31,487 nucleotides of DNA from positions 1 to 31,487 of the IMG/VR virus record IMGVR_UViG_3300017967_000115; one strand, given 5' to 3'. The stretch comes from a virus. Numbering within the stretch: position 1 is the stretch's first letter; each line of letters begins with the position of its first letter. Positions 18,679 to 28,734 of this stretch are shown here, one piece after another. The notes under the pieces are model-generated. The model saw nothing but the letters and a program-made list of their open reading frames with translations, did no database searches and was not told the origin of the DNA. Made by a program: the position numbers and the translations under genes.

Positions 18679-19536
18679 TTATCTCCCCCATTGTGAGTCA
18701 ACCATCTGGTCGTGTAATCGGTCCTGCCCCAAACTGCGAAGCGCCTTACGATTATCCGGTATATTTTTGTCAATTAAAACAACCGTTTCCTGATAGTTAC
18801 CTCCCTTCAGCTGCATAACATAGTAATTATTCAGGTTTGTGGCGGTATTCATGGCTTTCACAAGCGCCCCTTGTGACACACTGTTTGCGAGGGTTAGCGC
18901 GTTTTCTTGCGCAGCTAAGGCTGTTTCTAACCGGTTATCGTCGCCTTCTTCGTCCTTTTCATCCTTCTCCGCCTCTTCTTTGTCGTAAAGATCCGGATCC
19001 GTAGGCTCTAGCGAGTTGAGGACGTAGATGTCGTTGAGTGAATCGTAAATATCGTAGGTAGGAAGATCAGGGAGTTCCGGTTGCTGCACCCTGTTAGGGT
19101 CAAAACGATAAGAATACAAAACAAGAGGGTCTTCCACACGACCTATGCCCACCTGTTCAATGCTTCCATCGCCCCAATCTCCCACTGGCGAATATGGCAG
19201 CGGTATGAATTTTTGGATTGTTGCACCACGACCCCCCGACCAATCATCTGTTGACCGGAATATATATCCACTTCCATCGGCATTCTCGTTCTGGATACTG
19301 ACGGTATAGGGGTCTGCCGGGTCTTTGACGGCTGTGTATCGGTAGAAGACGCCGTTGATGTCCACACCTTCCAATGCTGGTACAGGAAAAAGAGAACTAG
19401 ACATCCCCCAAGTGCTACCCCCAGCAGCAGCGTTATTGCTGTTTCCAAAGACATAATCAGAATAACAAGGCGGTGCCAAAAATACCGCCGATAATGCCAA
19501 GAGCTTGATTGCGCTTGTCTTCAGCCGTCGGTTCAT
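18679..19536 (-). CDS. exported protein, unknown function
   Basis: Of two in-frame ATGs the one at 19536 has AGAGG 9 bases before it, giving 285 residues. The signal peptide (NRRLKTSAIKLLALSAVFLA, then PPCYS) is followed by VFGNSNNAAAGGSTWGMSS, YRYTAVKDPADPYTVSIQNE and YIFRSTDDWSGG. An acidic linker (KEEAEKDEKDEEGDDN) lies at about 197-212, and a C-terminal helical part ends in DQMVDSQWGR. The signal sequence lies within the 3' end of the preceding gene (overlap of about 80 bases). Its domains suggest a secreted, beta-rich protein with a coiled tail. I know the SIQNENADG-GYIFR-TDDWSGG motif from other marine phages, with no function. Confidence 0.68.
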   Translation of the reverse strand: MNRRLKTSAIKLLALSAVFLAPPCYSDYVFGNSNNAAAGGSTWGMSSSLFPVPALEGVDINGVFYRYTAVKDPADPYTVSIQNENADGSGYIFRSTDDWSGGRGATIQKFIPLPYSPVGDWGDGSIEQVGIGRVEDPLVLYSYRFDPNRVQQPELPDLPTYDIYDSLNDIYVLNSLEPTDPDLYDKEEAEKDEKDEEGDDNRLETALAAQENALTLANSVSQGALVKAMNTATNLNNYYVMQLKGGNYQETVVLIDKNIPDNRKALRSLGQDRLHDQMVDSQWGR

Positions 19537-20041
19537 CTTTGCCATCCTCTTTAGGTACTTCAGTCGTCTTTACCGCCCATGCAGCCTTTGCTTCATTACC
19601 AATCAAGCCGTCAATGGGACAAGGAGTCCCTGCATCCATCATCGCCTGCCAGACGTCCGGGTCTTGGCACATTACCGAAACAGCCGCAACTTTCATGCCA
19701 AACGTATAAAGCTTTGACGCCTTCTTCAAACGCAAGCAGTTTTCTTCGGTAAAGGTTGAGCCGACGGAGATTCCAAGTATCTGAGTCTGAACAGCTCCGC
19801 CAGCTCCGATGGTGCATAAATCTGAGTTATTTCCCGTTGAGAACTGAGGAGCAATTGCTGAAGGCGGAGGGGATTCGACTTTTGTCGTCTGACTGCCATT
19901 TGTCGTCACCGTACTGGTTGATTCGGTAACAATAGGGTCTGCTGCCATGGCTTGTTCAGCCAATGTGATCGCAGCAACAATCGCACCCCCCACAACAAAT
20001 GAGTAGAAGAATAGTTTAACCCTCTGCACACCTGTCATCAT
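19457..20041 (-). CDS. exported conserved protein next to the portal gene
   Basis: The product has 194 residues. AGGGG lies 6 bases before the first of two adjacent ATGs. The signal peptide reaches about residue 33 (FFYSFVVGGAIVAAITLAEQ, then AMA). The mature part has a Ser and Thr rich linker and then LCTIGAGGAVQTQILGISVG, STFTEENCLRLKKASKLYTF, GMKVAAVSVMCQDPDVWQAM and GTPCPIDGLIGNEAKAAW with four or five cysteines. It ends in a second hydrophobic helix (ALGIIGGIFGTALLF). The CLRLKKSKLY-GMKVAAVS-LCQDP motif recurs in marine phages but its role is unknown. It opens the envelope-directed block. Confidence 0.7.
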   Translation of the reverse strand: MMTGVQRVKLFFYSFVVGGAIVAAITLAEQAMAADPIVTESTSTVTTNGSQTTKVESPPPSAIAPQFSTGNNSDLCTIGAGGAVQTQILGISVGSTFTEENCLRLKKASKLYTFGMKVAAVSVMCQDPDVWQAMMDAGTPCPIDGLIGNEAKAAWAVKTTEVPKEDGKDEPTAEDKRNQALGIIGGIFGTALLF

Positions 20042-20054
20042 AAGCGACCCCTAT

Positions 20055-20070
20055 TGTTCCACGTGGAACA
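20055..20070. promoter_or_regulatory. parS-like 16-base palindrome
   Basis: TGTTCCACGTGGAACA is a perfect 16-base palindrome in the 29-base gap between the portal gene and the next gene. Its core GTTCCACGTGGAAC matches the chromosomal parS consensus bound by ParB in Pseudomonas and many other bacteria. A chance 16-base perfect match in a window of this size is very unlikely. No parB gene is seen here, so a host or unseen phage ParB would be needed. Confidence 0.8.
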
Positions 20071-22494
20071 TTATTGCGTTGGCGGATTACCATTTTGTTT
20101 CAGCATCTCACGCACATAACCTGCGTCGATACGCGATGCGGTCTGCTGCTCTTGCGACTGCATACGGTCGTAGAACTGACGGTCGCGCATCTTGAGCGTC
20201 TCTTGATCGAGCTGCAAATCGGCTTGATCTTTCTGCTGGTTGGCTTGCTGCTGCTGAGCCTTGAGTTGCAACTCCTGCTCTTTCAACTGTACCAATGGAT
20301 CTGGCTGACCAGCACCTGACAATTCGCCAGAAAGCTGCTTCACCTGCTGCATGCCTTGTGCAATGAACTGCGCAACCATGGTGTTGTACTGCAAATCCGC
20401 AGACGCTTGGTCCATAGGCTGCTGCTGTGCCATTTGTGACATCTGAACCTTTGCCTGCTCTTCTGCCGCTACCTTAACGTGCTGCATGATGTGCTTCTGA
20501 AGCTCCATCGCAACCGGAGGCAAACCTGCAACCATCGGCGTCGAACCAAAGACCATGTGCGACATAATGTGCGACTGGTGATCCTGTCCTTCAAACGCGG
20601 TCAACGGTGCCATATCTAACGCATCAATATTCTCGCTTGCAGGATCCTTCGGTGCAGGCTCTTCATCGGGTACCGTCTTCATCAAACGGTCCACATCTTT
20701 CACGCCTAACGCGTCGTACATATCACGATAAACTTCGTGCATGTTATGCAGCTCAGGAGCGGCACCTGCTAACTGCAACTTAGTCTGCGCCAATGCAATA
20801 CGCTGCGCCTGACTAAACATGTTGGGATCTGACACCGGCAGAATGTCCACACGACTGTCAAAATCCTGCGCCATGATCGATGCGTCAGCACCCTCAACCG
20901 CATACGGATACTCTTGCGGCAAAAACTCACCCATTACACGCGCCAGAATCTTAAATTCTTGCTTCATCGCATAATGCAAGCGCTTATGAATTGCGCTCAT
21001 GACCCGTGAGCCTTGTTCCAACAAAGCGATTGTCGTGCCCACAGCGGCGTTTTGATTGCCATCACCAACTTGCATATTGGTTATGGTCGCAAAGCGCTGT
21101 CCGGCGTCTACAACGAATCCTAGCAGCTGAAATAACGTCTGATCAGGACCTTTGAACGGCAACGGCATCAACGCGTCACGAATCGCGCCACCCGGTGCGT
21201 CAACATCACGGAATTCACCCGGCTGCAAAGGCTCTTCGTCATCACGAATACGCATGCCGCGTGCTTTAAAACCTGCTGGCAGGTTAGATAAAGTGCCAGC
21301 ATCAATTAGCTGGCGTAATGCCGCCGTCGCAGTACGCGACAAACCACCAATCGTATGGATCAAACCCAAGCCATAGAAACCAAAGCCCGGTAAGAATTTG
21401 TAATGCACGAAATAACGGATCTTGGACCGTGTTTCGTCGTCCTCGCGATAGTTACGACGAATCGCTAAGATTTCACCATTGTCATAACTGAGCGTCACAA
21501 TGTACGGTAACTTTATACCGGTAGGCTCGCCGTCTTCATCAAGGTCTTCGTAACCTTCCAGATCTAACTCAACGTGGCACTCTAACAAGGTACAGTCATA
21601 ATCAATGTGTGATGCCGATGATCCGTTAATATCATCCAACTCATCACTGATTGACGTCGCTTCTTTCTGCGAAGGTAATACCTCCACATCTAAATACTGA
21701 CCTGCAATCTGCATCTTGCGCACGTCGTTAAGCGACATACGCACAACCTGCGTAATGTTAGGGCACGTCTCAAGGTCAGAAGTCTCGTAAGGAACCACCA
21801 ACTGCTCAGCAGGAACAAACTTGCTCACTGCACGGCCCATGGCATCGTCAAAGTAAACTTTCTTGAATGTTGAACCTGCCAGAGGCAATGAGAACAACAT
21901 CTGATCCATGTCCGGTGTGTATTCCTCCATCACGCAAGTGATGTAGTAGTTCATAAATTGACGGACACGCTTAGATTGCGACTGCTTTTCACGAGTTTCC
22001 TGACCCATAATCGCCGTGCGAACAGGACCAGAAGCCGGTAATAACTCGTTAAAAGCCTGCGCCTGAAACTGTGTGGCAGCTTCAGCAAGCAAAGGGTGCG
22101 TTACACCCGTTGCTCCTCGGAAAGGTTCCGTACGCTCTTCATAGTTAAAGCCCAATAACTCCAGACCATTAGCGTAAGATTCTTCCCAATCCGATCTTGC
22201 AGCCTTGTTAGCATCATATTCGTCTAACAACATGTTAGCGATACGACCTAATTCACGCTGTGGCATATATTCCGCTAAGTTATCGCCGAAGTCTTCGTCG
22301 CCTTCGTTACGCTCACCCGCTTCAAAATCAATTTCAACACCACCATCGTCGGTCTCAGTGATCGAAACGTTATCCACGTCACCTTCAGCCAACATCATGT
22401 TGACATCGTTCATAGAATCCGGAATCTCAATCTCCAACTCGGCGCGGAGATCCTCTTCGTCCAACTGGGTAGGGACGTTCTTTTCAATCGCCAT
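20071..22494 (-). CDS. portal protein (P22-like)
   Basis: The product has 807 residues, long as in P22-type portals. It forms the ring at one capsid vertex through which DNA enters. The first 75 residues are acidic. The region of about 100-170 (WEESYANGLELLGFNYEERT, PFRGATGVTHPLLAEAATQF) and SLPLAGSTFKKVYFDDAMGR are typical of this family. The middle has YKFLPGFGFYGLGLIHTIGG and AALRQLIDAGTLSNLPAGFK. The last 120 residues are a Gln-rich helix (LKEQELQLKAQQQQANQQKD) like the P22 barrel. It follows the terminase with one gene between and overlaps that gene's stop (TAATG). Confidence 0.87.
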   Translation of the reverse strand: MAIEKNVPTQLDEEDLRAELEIEIPDSMNDVNMMLAEGDVDNVSITETDDGGVEIDFEAGERNEGDEDFGDNLAEYMPQRELGRIANMLLDEYDANKAARSDWEESYANGLELLGFNYEERTEPFRGATGVTHPLLAEAATQFQAQAFNELLPASGPVRTAIMGQETREKQSQSKRVRQFMNYYITCVMEEYTPDMDQMLFSLPLAGSTFKKVYFDDAMGRAVSKFVPAEQLVVPYETSDLETCPNITQVVRMSLNDVRKMQIAGQYLDVEVLPSQKEATSISDELDDINGSSASHIDYDCTLLECHVELDLEGYEDLDEDGEPTGIKLPYIVTLSYDNGEILAIRRNYREDDETRSKIRYFVHYKFLPGFGFYGLGLIHTIGGLSRTATAALRQLIDAGTLSNLPAGFKARGMRIRDDEEPLQPGEFRDVDAPGGAIRDALMPLPFKGPDQTLFQLLGFVVDAGQRFATITNMQVGDGNQNAAVGTTIALLEQGSRVMSAIHKRLHYAMKQEFKILARVMGEFLPQEYPYAVEGADASIMAQDFDSRVDILPVSDPNMFSQAQRIALAQTKLQLAGAAPELHNMHEVYRDMYDALGVKDVDRLMKTVPDEEPAPKDPASENIDALDMAPLTAFEGQDHQSHIMSHMVFGSTPMVAGLPPVAMELQKHIMQHVKVAAEEQAKVQMSQMAQQQPMDQASADLQYNTMVAQFIAQGMQQVKQLSGELSGAGQPDPLVQLKEQELQLKAQQQQANQQKDQADLQLDQETLKMRDRQFYDRMQSQEQQTASRIDAGYVREMLKQNGNPPTQ

Positions 22495-23549
22495 TACTTA
22501 GCTCCTAAATATGGCACATACCCCATAATGCCCCGTGGGCGGCGGGTCATGTTTCGGGCGGTGTCAAGTAATGATACTACACCACCTTCGGCGAAGTTAG
22601 AATCATCTATATCTTTAAGAACCTCTAATAAATCGTCTTCAAGCCTAGAACCATCACCGCGTGCCTGCATATCTCTTATAGCCTTAGAACCCGCCATTTG
22701 TGCCTGCATATTTGCAATAGCGGGGTTTATTGAAGATTGGTCTAATAACTCTTTTCCAAGCTTAGAACCCGCCATCTGTGCTTGCATATTTGCAATAGCG
22801 GGGTTTACTGAGGCTTGATCTAATAGCTCTTTTCCAAGCTTAGAACCCGCCATCTGTGCTTGCATATTTGCAATAGCGGGGTTTACTGAGGCTTGATCTA
22901 ATAGCTCTCTTCCAATCTTAGAACCCGCCATTTGTGCCTGCATATTTGCAATAGCGGGGTTGTCCGGCATAAAGCCGCCTGCACGCAAAGTTCCTTCAAC
23001 CGTCTGATCAGTCATCGATGCCGAATTCATATTCGCAATCCGATTCCTAACATCAACCAACTCCGCATGCTTTTCAGGATTAACTTTCGCCAATTCCTCC
23101 ATCGGATCGGTCATCAAACCGCGCTCGTTAGGTACAGATTTTGGCAAAAGCGCCTTCAACTCATCCTCACGGTCCTTCAAACTGTGCATCGCGTTAGATA
23201 CTTCATCACCAAGCTTGGTAATGGAAGGCAACAAGCGCCGTGCGCCGCGGGTCACCATGCCTAAACCGGGGATCGCGCCTAAAATACCCAAACCGCCCTC
23301 AAAATAATCGCCCTTTTGAAACGCTTCAATGCCCGCTTCGCCCGAACGGTACTCCCCGGTTCCCGGCGACATGTCCAAACCGAGTTCAAACAGCGCATTA
23401 AGGTAATTTTCTTGGGACTGCGGGTCGAGTTCTATGCCAGACATGCTGACATCTAAAGGATCCACAGAATTATCCACAGAATTATCCACAGGATTGTAGT
23501 TCTCTACCGCAGTTTTATCGTCCATACCCCAGTGATCTCGGCTTGTCAA
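22494..23549 (-). CDS. repeat protein between terminase and portal
   Basis: The frame opens at TTG (23547-23549), which overlaps the terminase stop. An ATG at 23525 is a possible start with a poorly placed GGGG. The product has 351 or 343 residues. It has the segment PVDNSVDNSVDPLDVSMSG, a middle with YLNALFELGLDMSPGTGEYR and GLGILGAIPGLGMVTRGARR, then four 26-residue repeats (NPAIANMQAQMAGSK, at residues 197, 223, 249 and 275). It closes with FAEGGVVSLLDTARNMTRRP and GYVPYLG. I know the EGGVVSL-D tail from marine phages. It may assist portal or DNA entry, since it lies between those genes. Function is unknown. Confidence 0.7.
   Translation of the reverse strand: MTSRDHWGMDDKTAVENYNPVDNSVDNSVDPLDVSMSGIELDPQSQENYLNALFELGLDMSPGTGEYRSGEAGIEAFQKGDYFEGGLGILGAIPGLGMVTRGARRLLPSITKLGDEVSNAMHSLKDREDELKALLPKSVPNERGLMTDPMEELAKVNPEKHAELVDVRNRIANMNSASMTDQTVEGTLRAGGFMPDNPAIANMQAQMAGSKIGRELLDQASVNPAIANMQAQMAGSKLGKELLDQASVNPAIANMQAQMAGSKLGKELLDQSSINPAIANMQAQMAGSKAIRDMQARGDGSRLEDDLLEVLKDIDDSNFAEGGVVSLLDTARNMTRRPRGIMGYVPYLGAK
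22683..22961 (-). repeat. four tandem 78-bp coding repeats
   Basis: Four units of 78 bases each encode NPAIANMQAQMAGSK followed by a variable 11-residue linker such as LGKELLDQASV. The middle two are almost identical at the DNA level, and the last unit has a different ending. The helical character of the units suggests a helical array. Their near-identity suggests recent duplication. Confidence 0.85.
23458..23490. promoter_or_regulatory. two perfect DnaA boxes (third degenerate) in a 12-bp repeat
   Basis: TTATCCACA occurs at 23470-23478 and 23482-23490 in the same orientation, 12 bases apart. GGATCCACA at 23458-23466 differs from the box in its first two bases. All lie inside the coding segment that gives the repeated NSVDNSVD of the neighbouring protein. 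Two perfect boxes could bind host DnaA, but the coding repeat could also produce them by chance. Confidence 0.5.
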
Positions 23550-25012
23550 TAATAAAGCCTGACTTTAGCAGACTCTTGCTCGTCTTCCCAATCATCTGTT
23601 GGCAAAATCACGAAATTACCCTGACGGTACCTCATCAATGCCTGTGTCATCGAGTCAACCAAGTCGTCGTGCTCACCATTGGGAAACGCCGCAACCTCCT
23701 CAATTAACTCATCGGCCCACGTCTCGTCCGGCGCCCATACCATCCCAGCCTCAAACAAGGGCGATACACTATGTACCCGCGTTACCTTGTCATTGCCCCG
23801 TGATGGCGTGAAATTGACCACCGGAATCCCCTGATTTCGCAATTCATGCGTCAATGGCATACCGCTCGCCTTCGCCTCCACGATGACGGTGTCGGGGTCC
23901 CAGTACTTCCACTGCTCTAACGCCACCGCTTTCAACTCCGGAAAATCCCACCGACCCTTCTTCGAATCCAAAAGAATCAAATTGGGACCCGAACCACCCT
24001 CGTTAGGATAAAAAACACCCCACGTCGTGATCGCACTAAAGTCCGCCGTCTCACGCTTACTAAACGCCGTATCGTACGACTGAATCACATACTGCAACTG
24101 CGGAACAGATCCACGCTCCCAACGTCGCCACCACTCCCGCTTAATAATCGCATTCTCTTCACCTGTAGGATTTTGCTGATACTGAGCGTTCCACTTGCTA
24201 GGAGGTATCGACGCGCGGACCGCGCTCAAATCATGGAGGCTCCAGAACTCAGGCCAACAAGGAACCTCGTCGGGGGTCCCTTCGTCAAAAATAGCCGGTA
24301 ACTCCACTACCTCCCACTGATCCGCCTTCTCATCTTTCGACATCGCCTTGATCAACTGACCGGTCATATCCTTCTCAGACCACCGCGTCTGAACCAAAAC
24401 AATCGAACCGCCCGGCTGCAAACGCTGACGAGGACCACCCGTGTACCAATCCCACGCATCCTCAAAACCCGTATTCGACATCGCGGTCTGCTCCGAGTGC
24501 GGATCGTCAATGATTACCAAGTCACCACCACGACCCGCCAAGTTCGAACCAACGCCCACGGCGTAGTACATGCCACCTTTGTTCGTGTCCCACCGACCAG
24601 ACGCCTTCGAGTCAGCCGCTAACTTAACTTCAGGAAAAATATCCTTGTACGTATCCGACTCAATCAAGTTCTTTGTCTTTCGACCAAAGTTAACCGCAAG
24701 CTCCGTGGTGTGCGTTGCCTGAATGATCTTCTTGTTAGGCTGCCTACCCATAAACCAAGCAGGAAACAAAAATGACGCAAACTCGGACTTGGTATGTCGA
24801 GGAGCCATATTGATGATCAGACGCTTGAGCTCGCCACGCGCAACACGTTCTAACTTCTCCGCAATGATTCTATGGTGCCGCCCTGCAATGAACTCGGGCC
24901 ACACGGCTTTTACGAAGTCCAAAAAATTATTTTGGCAGGCTTCCGTCTTCTCTAATTGAGCCAAACGTAAACGTAATTTGAGCTCTTTTTCGGACAGGTG
25001 TTCTTCGATCAA
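23546..25012 (-). CDS. terminase large subunit
   Basis: The product has 488 residues. It opens at TTG (25010-25012) with GGAG upstream, and no ATG lies nearby. It cuts and pumps DNA into the head. The ATPase half has a deviant Walker A MAPRHTKSE (69-77), Walker B LVIIDDP (165-171) and coupling motif VLVQTRW (205-211). The nuclease half has acidic residues in SYDTAF (Asp314), EAKASG (Glu379) and HDDLVDSM (Asp449, Asp450, Asp453). All motors and metal ligands are present. It is separated from the small subunit by about 5.8 kb of small genes. A promoter and a 600-base gap lie upstream. Confidence 0.92.
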   Translation of the reverse strand: MIEEHLSEKELKLRLRLAQLEKTEACQNNFLDFVKAVWPEFIAGRHHRIIAEKLERVARGELKRLIINMAPRHTKSEFASFLFPAWFMGRQPNKKIIQATHTTELAVNFGRKTKNLIESDTYKDIFPEVKLAADSKASGRWDTNKGGMYYAVGVGSNLAGRGGDLVIIDDPHSEQTAMSNTGFEDAWDWYTGGPRQRLQPGGSIVLVQTRWSEKDMTGQLIKAMSKDEKADQWEVVELPAIFDEGTPDEVPCWPEFWSLHDLSAVRASIPPSKWNAQYQQNPTGEENAIIKREWWRRWERGSVPQLQYVIQSYDTAFSKRETADFSAITTWGVFYPNEGGSGPNLILLDSKKGRWDFPELKAVALEQWKYWDPDTVIVEAKASGMPLTHELRNQGIPVVNFTPSRGNDKVTRVHSVSPLFEAGMVWAPDETWADELIEEVAAFPNGEHDDLVDSMTQALMRYRQGNFVILPTDDWEDEQESAKVRLYY

Positions 25013-25072: not shown

Positions 25073-25560
25073 GACCATATCATTTTTCTGCTGATTATTT
25101 GTGAAAAACATGGCCCATGATGCCGTGCCCAGCGATGCGCCGCCGCGAATTTCGGATCGCGATAAGTGTTTGATTTTAAACGATTTAGCCTCGATTCTCA
25201 AAGGATCCTAGAAAAAGTACCGCGAACCACGCGCCGCGGTTTTAATTGCGGATTAATTAATAATTTGCTGCGTGATCGATGCAGCGGATCGCCGCCCCAG
25301 TGCCGCGGATCGCGCCCCTCGATGAACATCGAGCGCGCCCTGTACGTCAAAAAAATAACGTACATAAAATAATCACGAACAAACAAACACGCACCACGAA
25401 CCGCGCACCAAGAGCCCTGGTCTCGCGCTGGACAACCTCGCCCGCAACCCTTGCTATTGCTGCGTTTTTAAATCGCTTTTTGTACAAAAAATCGCAATCC
25501 GTAGGTTTCGAGCCGTGATCGAGCGCCCGCGCCCCGCTTGTATTACTACCGAGCACGCAT
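25073..25560. other. noncoding region rich in dyads and GATC
   Basis: No reading frame here has a convincing start, ribosome site or recognisable product. The region holds several dyads: CTCGATG-AA-CATCGAG (25318-25333), TGTACGT and ACGTACA with a 10-base loop (25341-25364), a 14-base palindrome TTTTTGTACAAAAA (25477-25490) and GCTGC with GCAGC around ATCGAT (about 25267-25285). CGGATCGC recurs three times (near 25153, 25286 and 25307). It could contain a replication origin, a packaging site or regulatory sites. Confidence 0.6.
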
Positions 25561-27543: not shown

Positions 27544-28734
27544 TTATGCGACTTTATCCAATAGCTTACCGGCTAAACGCTCAACCTCGATGCGGTTATC
27601 TTGATGCGGAATATCACGCGCTATAGCTGTAATACCCTGCACCGCGTCCCATACGTTTTCGATAGGGCGCTGCTCTTCCTTCATGTGGCGCTGCATTGCC
27701 GCATTAGCCATACGCTTAGATAACCCCGCGCGCTTGGTTAAAAACTCTAAGCGCTTTTCGTCGGTGCTCTCGATCTTAGCTTGCTTAGCTGCTTGTACGC
27801 CCTCGATGAAAGATCCGGTGCTACCTTGTGCGAATGACTGCAAAGCCGGACGCGCTTCAGTAGCGAAACGATCTGGGGCAAATTTAGTGTGGCGAATCTT
27901 AATTTCCTGAAAATTCTCAACGCCCCATAGATTGCGATTCATACAAACGCCGCGCAGATACATAGCAGCAATGCCCGCTGTCTTACTGCCCGTTTCACTA
28001 TTCCAAGCGTAAAAACCTCTAAACATCAGATCCGGCTCGCCATTGGCTAACTTACCGACTTCAATGGGGTTGCGATCATCGACTAAGAAAACAAACACGT
28101 CACGATCAGACGCAAACAACGTTGTGGTATCCATAGTCACCGGTACTTCTGGATCATAAACCGACAGACCATTATTGCCGCCCACAATCGCCCCGGGAAT
28201 TTTCCAACGCCCATTCGATCCATCAACCAAGTCTTTAATTGGACGTAAGATTTCATGGTCATAAATACGCCCATAGTCAGCGCCAGTAGCTGCACGCAAC
28301 TGCTGCGATTCGCCATTTGAATAAACCTTGATCAGATCGCGAGAGCGATTGTGCTGCAAACCCCATTGCAAACAATCCGCGACTAATGGTGCGGGTAGAT
28401 CTTTAAGGTAGCCCGCAGGCGCCCCAGATAACTGCGCCATCTGCCCAAATGACCAGTTAGTGGGCATATCCATTGCCTCGCGTCCATTCTCATCAGTGTA
28501 CTCAACCATGATATCGCCCATCGATGGGTTTTCTTCATCAACCGTGCCGATAATATTCATCTTATGGGTATCGACAATGCGGCTAGTCATTTCGCGAGCA
28601 TCTGCAAGCTTGAATTGCAACATATCATCGAGCGAGGTAAAGCGCTCATCCTCAGGGCGGTTAGCCCAGTTAGATGCAAGCGCGTTATGTTTAGAAATGC
28701 CATGGGTAAAAGCATCAGTGTTATAGGTAGTCAT
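27544..28734 (-). CDS. DUF932 (phage/plasmid-like TIGR03299) protein
   Basis: The product has 396 residues. Features of this family appear in order: MPTNWSFGQMAQLSGAPAGY, LRAATGADYGRIYDHEILRP, FASDRDVFVFLVDDRNPIEV, FRGFYAWNSETGSKTAGIAA and MYLRGVCMNRNLWGVENFQE. The C-terminal part has LTKRAGLSKRMANAAMQRHM. Proteins of this family are found on phages and plasmids and have no proven function. A role in DNA metabolism or defence against host systems has been suggested only loosely. It is a single-gene unit with promoter unit 4 and its own terminator. Confidence 0.85.
   Translation of the reverse strand: MTTYNTDAFTHGISKHNALASNWANRPEDERFTSLDDMLQFKLADAREMTSRIVDTHKMNIIGTVDEENPSMGDIMVEYTDENGREAMDMPTNWSFGQMAQLSGAPAGYLKDLPAPLVADCLQWGLQHNRSRDLIKVYSNGESQQLRAATGADYGRIYDHEILRPIKDLVDGSNGRWKIPGAIVGGNNGLSVYDPEVPVTMDTTTLFASDRDVFVFLVDDRNPIEVGKLANGEPDLMFRGFYAWNSETGSKTAGIAAMYLRGVCMNRNLWGVENFQEIKIRHTKFAPDRFATEARPALQSFAQGSTGSFIEGVQAAKQAKIESTDEKRLEFLTKRAGLSKRMANAAMQRHMKEEQRPIENVWDAVQGITAIARDIPHQDNRIEVERLAGKLLDKVA

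Follow-up and report, generated by a model that had tools for sequence, protein, structure and literature searches.

Bacterial ParABS partition systems use parS, a centromere-like 16-bp palindrome of the class TGTTNCACGTGNAACA, which on the chromosome lies near oriC. ParB loads on parS and then slides as a CTP clamp (PMC12704722), and in P. aeruginosa it binds the half-sites GTTCCAC and GTTTCAC (PMC10419367). The same two half-site types make up the phage parS sequences described here. P1 and the extrachromosomal mycobacteriophages, which are plasmid-like prophages, carry a partition site on the phage genome, and these prophages encode partition proteins of their own that use cognate sites. 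The chromosome of phage phi29 is reported, in a paper citing Meijer et al. 2005, to be entrapped in spores by Spo0J, the ParB of its host (PMC9437464). Within its 19.3 kb (NC_011048.1; our locus L579), phi29, a small member of the Picovirinae with a spore-forming host, has perfect parS (TGTTTCACGTGGAACA) at four positions, 10445, 15903, 17243 and 18760. The third begins one base past the stop codon of gene 16 and just before annotated terminators. In our literature search, which did not extend to the Livny 2007 survey or the original phi29 paper, phi29 and Spo0J were the only described case of parS in a ParB-less phage.

Here we analyze a perfect parS in a marine phage contig (IMG/VR record IMGVR_UViG_3300017967_000115; the 31,487-nt stretch analyzed is hereafter called the window). 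The window resembles phi29 in pairing a perfect parS with the absence of parB matches and in having a site that abuts a stop codon. However, the window comes from an unrelated phage that has terminase and portal genes, and it has one site rather than four; nothing about its known relatives, which infect Roseobacter, Pelagibacter and gammaproteobacteria, hints at sporulation. Its partition site lies on a phage genome, as in P1 and the extrachromosomal mycobacteriophages, but the window has no match to parA, parB or an integrase, and unlike chromosomal parS the site sits in a packaging and head gene cluster. As far as we found, parS is new for this phage family, and it is conceptually related to phi29.

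Results

A perfect parS palindrome abuts the portal gene

The 16-mer TGTTCCACGTGGAACA at positions 20055–20070 of the window is a perfect palindrome of the parS class with zero mismatches to the consensus, as the initial annotation had read it. It is the sole match in the window even when up to three mismatches are allowed (mean at three mismatches in shuffled windows, 0.12), and a Markov model predicts the exact 16-mer about 0.2 times per Gb. The site fills 16 of the 29 bases of the minus-strand junction at 20042–20070 between the portal stop codon and the next ATG. Its first base directly adjoins the portal stop codon (TAA at 20071–20073 in plus-strand numbering), with no gap, and 13 nt separate it from the ATG of a 194-aa gene on the minus strand. 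The junction also contains the ribosome-site region of that gene, with GGGG upstream of the ATG. The portal gene (20071–22494, minus strand) was assigned through PHROG 1216 (E = 6e-52), and the 194-aa downstream gene (19457–20041, minus strand) belongs to phrog_20531, with its function unassigned. The large terminase subunit gene, terL (23546–25012, minus strand; PHROG 38, E = 2e-114), is the first gene of the packaging and head cluster. An RNA hairpin at the window site was considered and rejected, as folding of the window RNA was no better than that of shuffled sequences.

A near-identical contig (L407) from another sample, assembled independently and 99.99% identical over 9 kb, contains the same portal/parS junction; the window site is therefore not an assembly slip. 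The alignment of the two contigs also revealed local repeats around 22761–22961. Between terL and the portal gene, a 351-aa gene (22494–23549) had no tblastn match in any of the related loci examined, and the region before terL (27544–28734) encodes a protein matching DUF932 (Pfam PF06067) and PHROG 1362. Because relatives reach 54–58 kb, the 31.5-kb window is probably about half of a genome, and the missing half could contain more parS sites or a ParB gene.

No partition-gene matches accompany the site

Consistent with the initial annotation, which had seen neither parB nor parA, the window has no match to TIGR00180, PF02195 or PF13614. ParB profiles (TIGR00180, PF02195) found nothing in the window and 31 relatives, including records of 54 and 58 kb, and ParA (PF13614) and integrase (PF00589) profiles found nothing in 23 family records, the window among them. 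Searches for partner genes in the family reached relatives of up to 58–78 kb; some of the records searched for ParB and ParA may be fragments, so that absence from them is not proof. Neither the chromosomal arrangement, in which parS lies near oriC or parAB, nor a P1-like set of phage-encoded ParA and ParB was found in the window or its relatives. The arrangement is that of phi29, a parB-less genome with a perfect parS, and by analogy with its relatives the missing half of the window genome would presumably also be free of parB. Among 50 other parS-bearing viral records, one matched TIGR00180 above the cut-off and three more matched weakly. A control motif read backward was absent from all 50 of these records.

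Relatives concentrate parS in the terminase leader

We compared loci with a related portal gene (80 fetched) and loci with a related TerL gene (80 fetched), using terL as the anchor. The pattern GTTNCACGTGNAAC is present in 41 of 84 distinct terL upstream regions, whereas the commonest other palindrome of the same form is present in 4 of 84. The site usually lies 40–140 nt ahead of terL. In many members the leader pairs one TGTTCCACGTGGAACA with one TGTTTCACGTGAAACA at a spacing of 24 bp. Across 52 leader sites, 13 of 16 positions are invariant; variation occurs only at positions 1, 5 and 12, that is, at the tolerated N positions of parS plus position 1, and the flanking columns vary freely. 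Asymmetric forms with a C..A mismatch (TGTTCCACGTGAAACA) also occur in these leaders. The large family records contain either a perfect site or nothing nearer than two mismatches. This leader pattern is far beyond chance, indicating that the family sites are not random 16-mers. A recognizable site is missing from about half of the family, so parS is not essential. In several dissimilar leaders, parS lies 0–18 nt downstream of a −10-like hexamer, although such consensus promoter matches are weak evidence.

Site position turns over within the family

The precise position of the window site is not conserved beyond L407. Among the portal relatives fetched, parS directly after the portal gene was absent from all but this near-identical contig, and none of 51 other loci with homologs of the 194-aa downstream gene has parS next to that gene; the idea that parS travels together with the 194-aa gene was rejected on this count. 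Among cultured phages, the nearest have Roseobacter, Pelagibacter and one gammaproteobacterium as hosts, and those closest to the window (DSL-LC04 and CRP-901) have no parS within two mismatches in the portions examined.

The terL leader of the window aligns with those of several relatives (L124, L129, L362, L365, L366 and others) through a shared block, GGGCCATGTTT...CAAATAAT...AAAAATGATATGG, at 25116–25074 on the minus strand. The window lacks parS exactly where the aligned relatives have it, directly after this block. A homologous leader without the site, together with a site after the portal gene, indicates that parS has shifted by about 5 kb. Of the 46 parS carriers in the family, 41 have the site in the terL leader and five, including the window, have it elsewhere: it lies 1,048 nt upstream of terL in L388, L389 and L391 and 6.7 kb upstream in L390. 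In L374 parS occurs a second time, at +1468, roughly where terL ends. On a TerL tree, presence and absence of parS require 15 changes, gains and losses together, and presence is clustered relative to shuffles. The closest TerL branch to the window, L144, has no parS in its available sequence. L390 and L395 have nearly identical TerL proteins and only L390 has parS, a contrast that probably reflects a very recent gain or loss. Because most family sites lie in the leader of the terminase operon and some lie at other places, we conclude that their position turns over and that the feature is not spurious.

parS recurs in unrelated viruses

The exact parS 16-mer occurs in at least 120 IMG/VR stretches, whereas two palindromes matched to it in composition occur in 8 and 0, and tandem parS pairs occur in at least 120 viral contigs of the same database. 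A third, AT-rich control (TGTTTCATATGAAACA), which is expected 7–9 times more often than the parS 16-mer, also occurs in at least 120 stretches, so the IMG/VR counts alone are not the main evidence. Among the matches listed, 107 of 120 for TGTTTCATATGAAACA lie in coding DNA and none forms a tandem pair; for parS the corresponding figures are 70 of 120, with tandem pairs in five records. In the fetched viral loci taken together, 232 of the 390 parS sites are intergenic, against an expectation of 13%. Outside the family of the window, those neighboring genes to which a function is assigned encode head, connector or tail proteins or act in DNA replication. The sites lie at ordinary gene junctions, including one between DNA polymerase and ssb, mostly within co-directional gene pairs. 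One viral record has up to nine parS sites. Preferential abutment to stop codons was rejected (14 of 60 sites within 0–2 nt, 13.9 expected); the raw proximity to stop codons results from gap size and ribosome-site spacing.

In cultured-phage records, two 30-nt parS queries matched 331 and 131 records, counts that are inflated by near-duplicate and contaminated records, and a matched control matched 8. Carriers include Lactobacillus phage LpeD, Ruegeria phage V10 and Listeria phage P100, as well as Glutamicibacter phage Voltaire, which has tandem parS, and Pseudomonas phage KPP25, in which parS is flanked by ORF018, on the portal side, and the major head gene. Matches in Listeria phages LM 4-11-1 and 4-14-1 and in Acinetobacter phage MD-2021a were set aside, as these records look like host contamination.

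Several further placements were observed. In several cultured phages, parS or a near-parS falls within annotated terminal repeats or no more than a few hundred bases from the record start. Examples are phiPsa315 (H239), Vibrio phage phi 3 (H209) and Stenotrophomonas phage Salva (H283), as well as H238, H235 and H244, whose sites are near record ends; such sites would possibly mark the DNA that is injected first. Many Microbacterium phages (H167–H172) have a parS-like match within an annotated helix-turn-helix DNA-binding protein gene. The small genomes of single-stranded DNA Microviridae (H8, H29, H142 and H144) also match parS or near-parS, in some cases within gaps that lack annotation; examples of this type are bajarodino virus, Microviridae phi-CA82 and Spiroplasma phage 4.

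Discussion

Our preferred explanation, to which we assign a probability of roughly 0.55, is that positions 20055–20070 are a genuine parS and a putative loading site for host chromosomal ParB, which would make the phage a client of the host partition and SMC machinery. A perfect parS in this phage, with the same site elsewhere in the genomes of its relatives, suggests that it was probably placed by selection to borrow host machinery, and the window site is a real, host-type parS that is probably functional. The initial annotation had suggested such borrowing by a phage without its own parB. Constraint on the site, its recurrence in relatives and in unrelated phages, the lack of matches to ParB or ParA and the precedent of phi29 support this suggestion well. 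Conservation at the same place in related genomes, which the initial annotation had proposed as a check, is limited to L407; on the terms of that annotation this resembles a refutation, but turnover of the position accounts for it. The more specific idea that ParB spreading would regulate the portal and envelope genes found no support.

Because parS in the family is concentrated in the terL leader, ParB-dependent timing of late genes stays the main rival and a serious one, although we consider it improbable. Host ParB bound at a putative operator would repress or time the late packaging and head operon, and with a finite pool of host ParB this repression would be relieved as the phage copy number rises, amounting to a copy-number timer. 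The placement of 41 of 46 sites in the leader fits local regulation better than a loading site that is free to lie anywhere. Regulation is also favored by the −10-like hexamers a few bases before parS in several unrelated leaders, and the window site is still within the same head cluster. Yet the homologous leader of the window has no site, its parS lies 5 kb farther downstream and lacks an adjacent promoter-like match, and other relatives have theirs 1–6.7 kb upstream of terL. Unrelated phages have parS at ordinary junctions such as DNA polymerase/ssb, and in P. aeruginosa ParB at half-sites barely affects local transcription (PMC10419367). It is a good deal less likely that the site is a decoy, whereby replicating phage copies would titrate ParB off the host chromosome and disturb segregation or condensation to the gain of the phage. 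The four sites of phi29, the up to nine sites in one viral record and the tandem pairs would suit a sink, but the single site of the window and many relatives would make a weak one at low copy, and no specific sequence feature points to titration.

Two readings leave ParB aside. A perfect palindrome would suit a dimeric regulator encoded by the phage, or an RNA hairpin, and in relatives the site lies within a transcribed leader. We think this very unlikely: many unrelated phages share the identical 16-mer, with the same few positions being variable, and the C..A-mismatched forms would be disfavored in a hairpin. Slightly less likely still is a chance 16-mer. Reading a very large number of windows could yield any one exact match at random, half of the relatives are site-less, and the position is common only to a near-identical contig; against this stand the Markov expectation and the pattern across relatives, which contradicts chance for the family as a whole.

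Loading of host ParB, with positioning or retention of phage DNA as the benefit, is preferred because parS survives relocation from the late promoter and sits at ordinary junctions in unrelated phages. After injection, host ParB–CTP clamps would load at the phage parS and slide over adjacent phage DNA, and the genome would become a client of host ParA, ParB and SMC. It could thereby take up a place on or close to the nucleoid and be kept or segregated before replication or during a carrier or slow infection; SMC-driven compaction may be a further benefit. In its broadest form, which we put forward tentatively and at less than even odds, acquisition of a host parS for the loading of host ParB clamps and SMC would be a widespread trait of parB-less phages. 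In the marine family the site would move repeatedly between the terminase-operon promoter and other junctions, and it may serve as a timer, set by ParB titration, that links late expression or packaging to copy number.

If host ParB does load at these sites, a 16-bp site would suffice for many phages outside the spore-formers to exploit bacterial partition and condensin machinery, a cheap means of placing and keeping their DNA in the cell. Dependence of late-gene timing or pseudolysogeny on host ParB would then become testable and, because phi29, Pseudomonas phage KPP25 and Ruegeria phage V10 bear the site and infect culturable hosts, the idea can be tested without the marine host.
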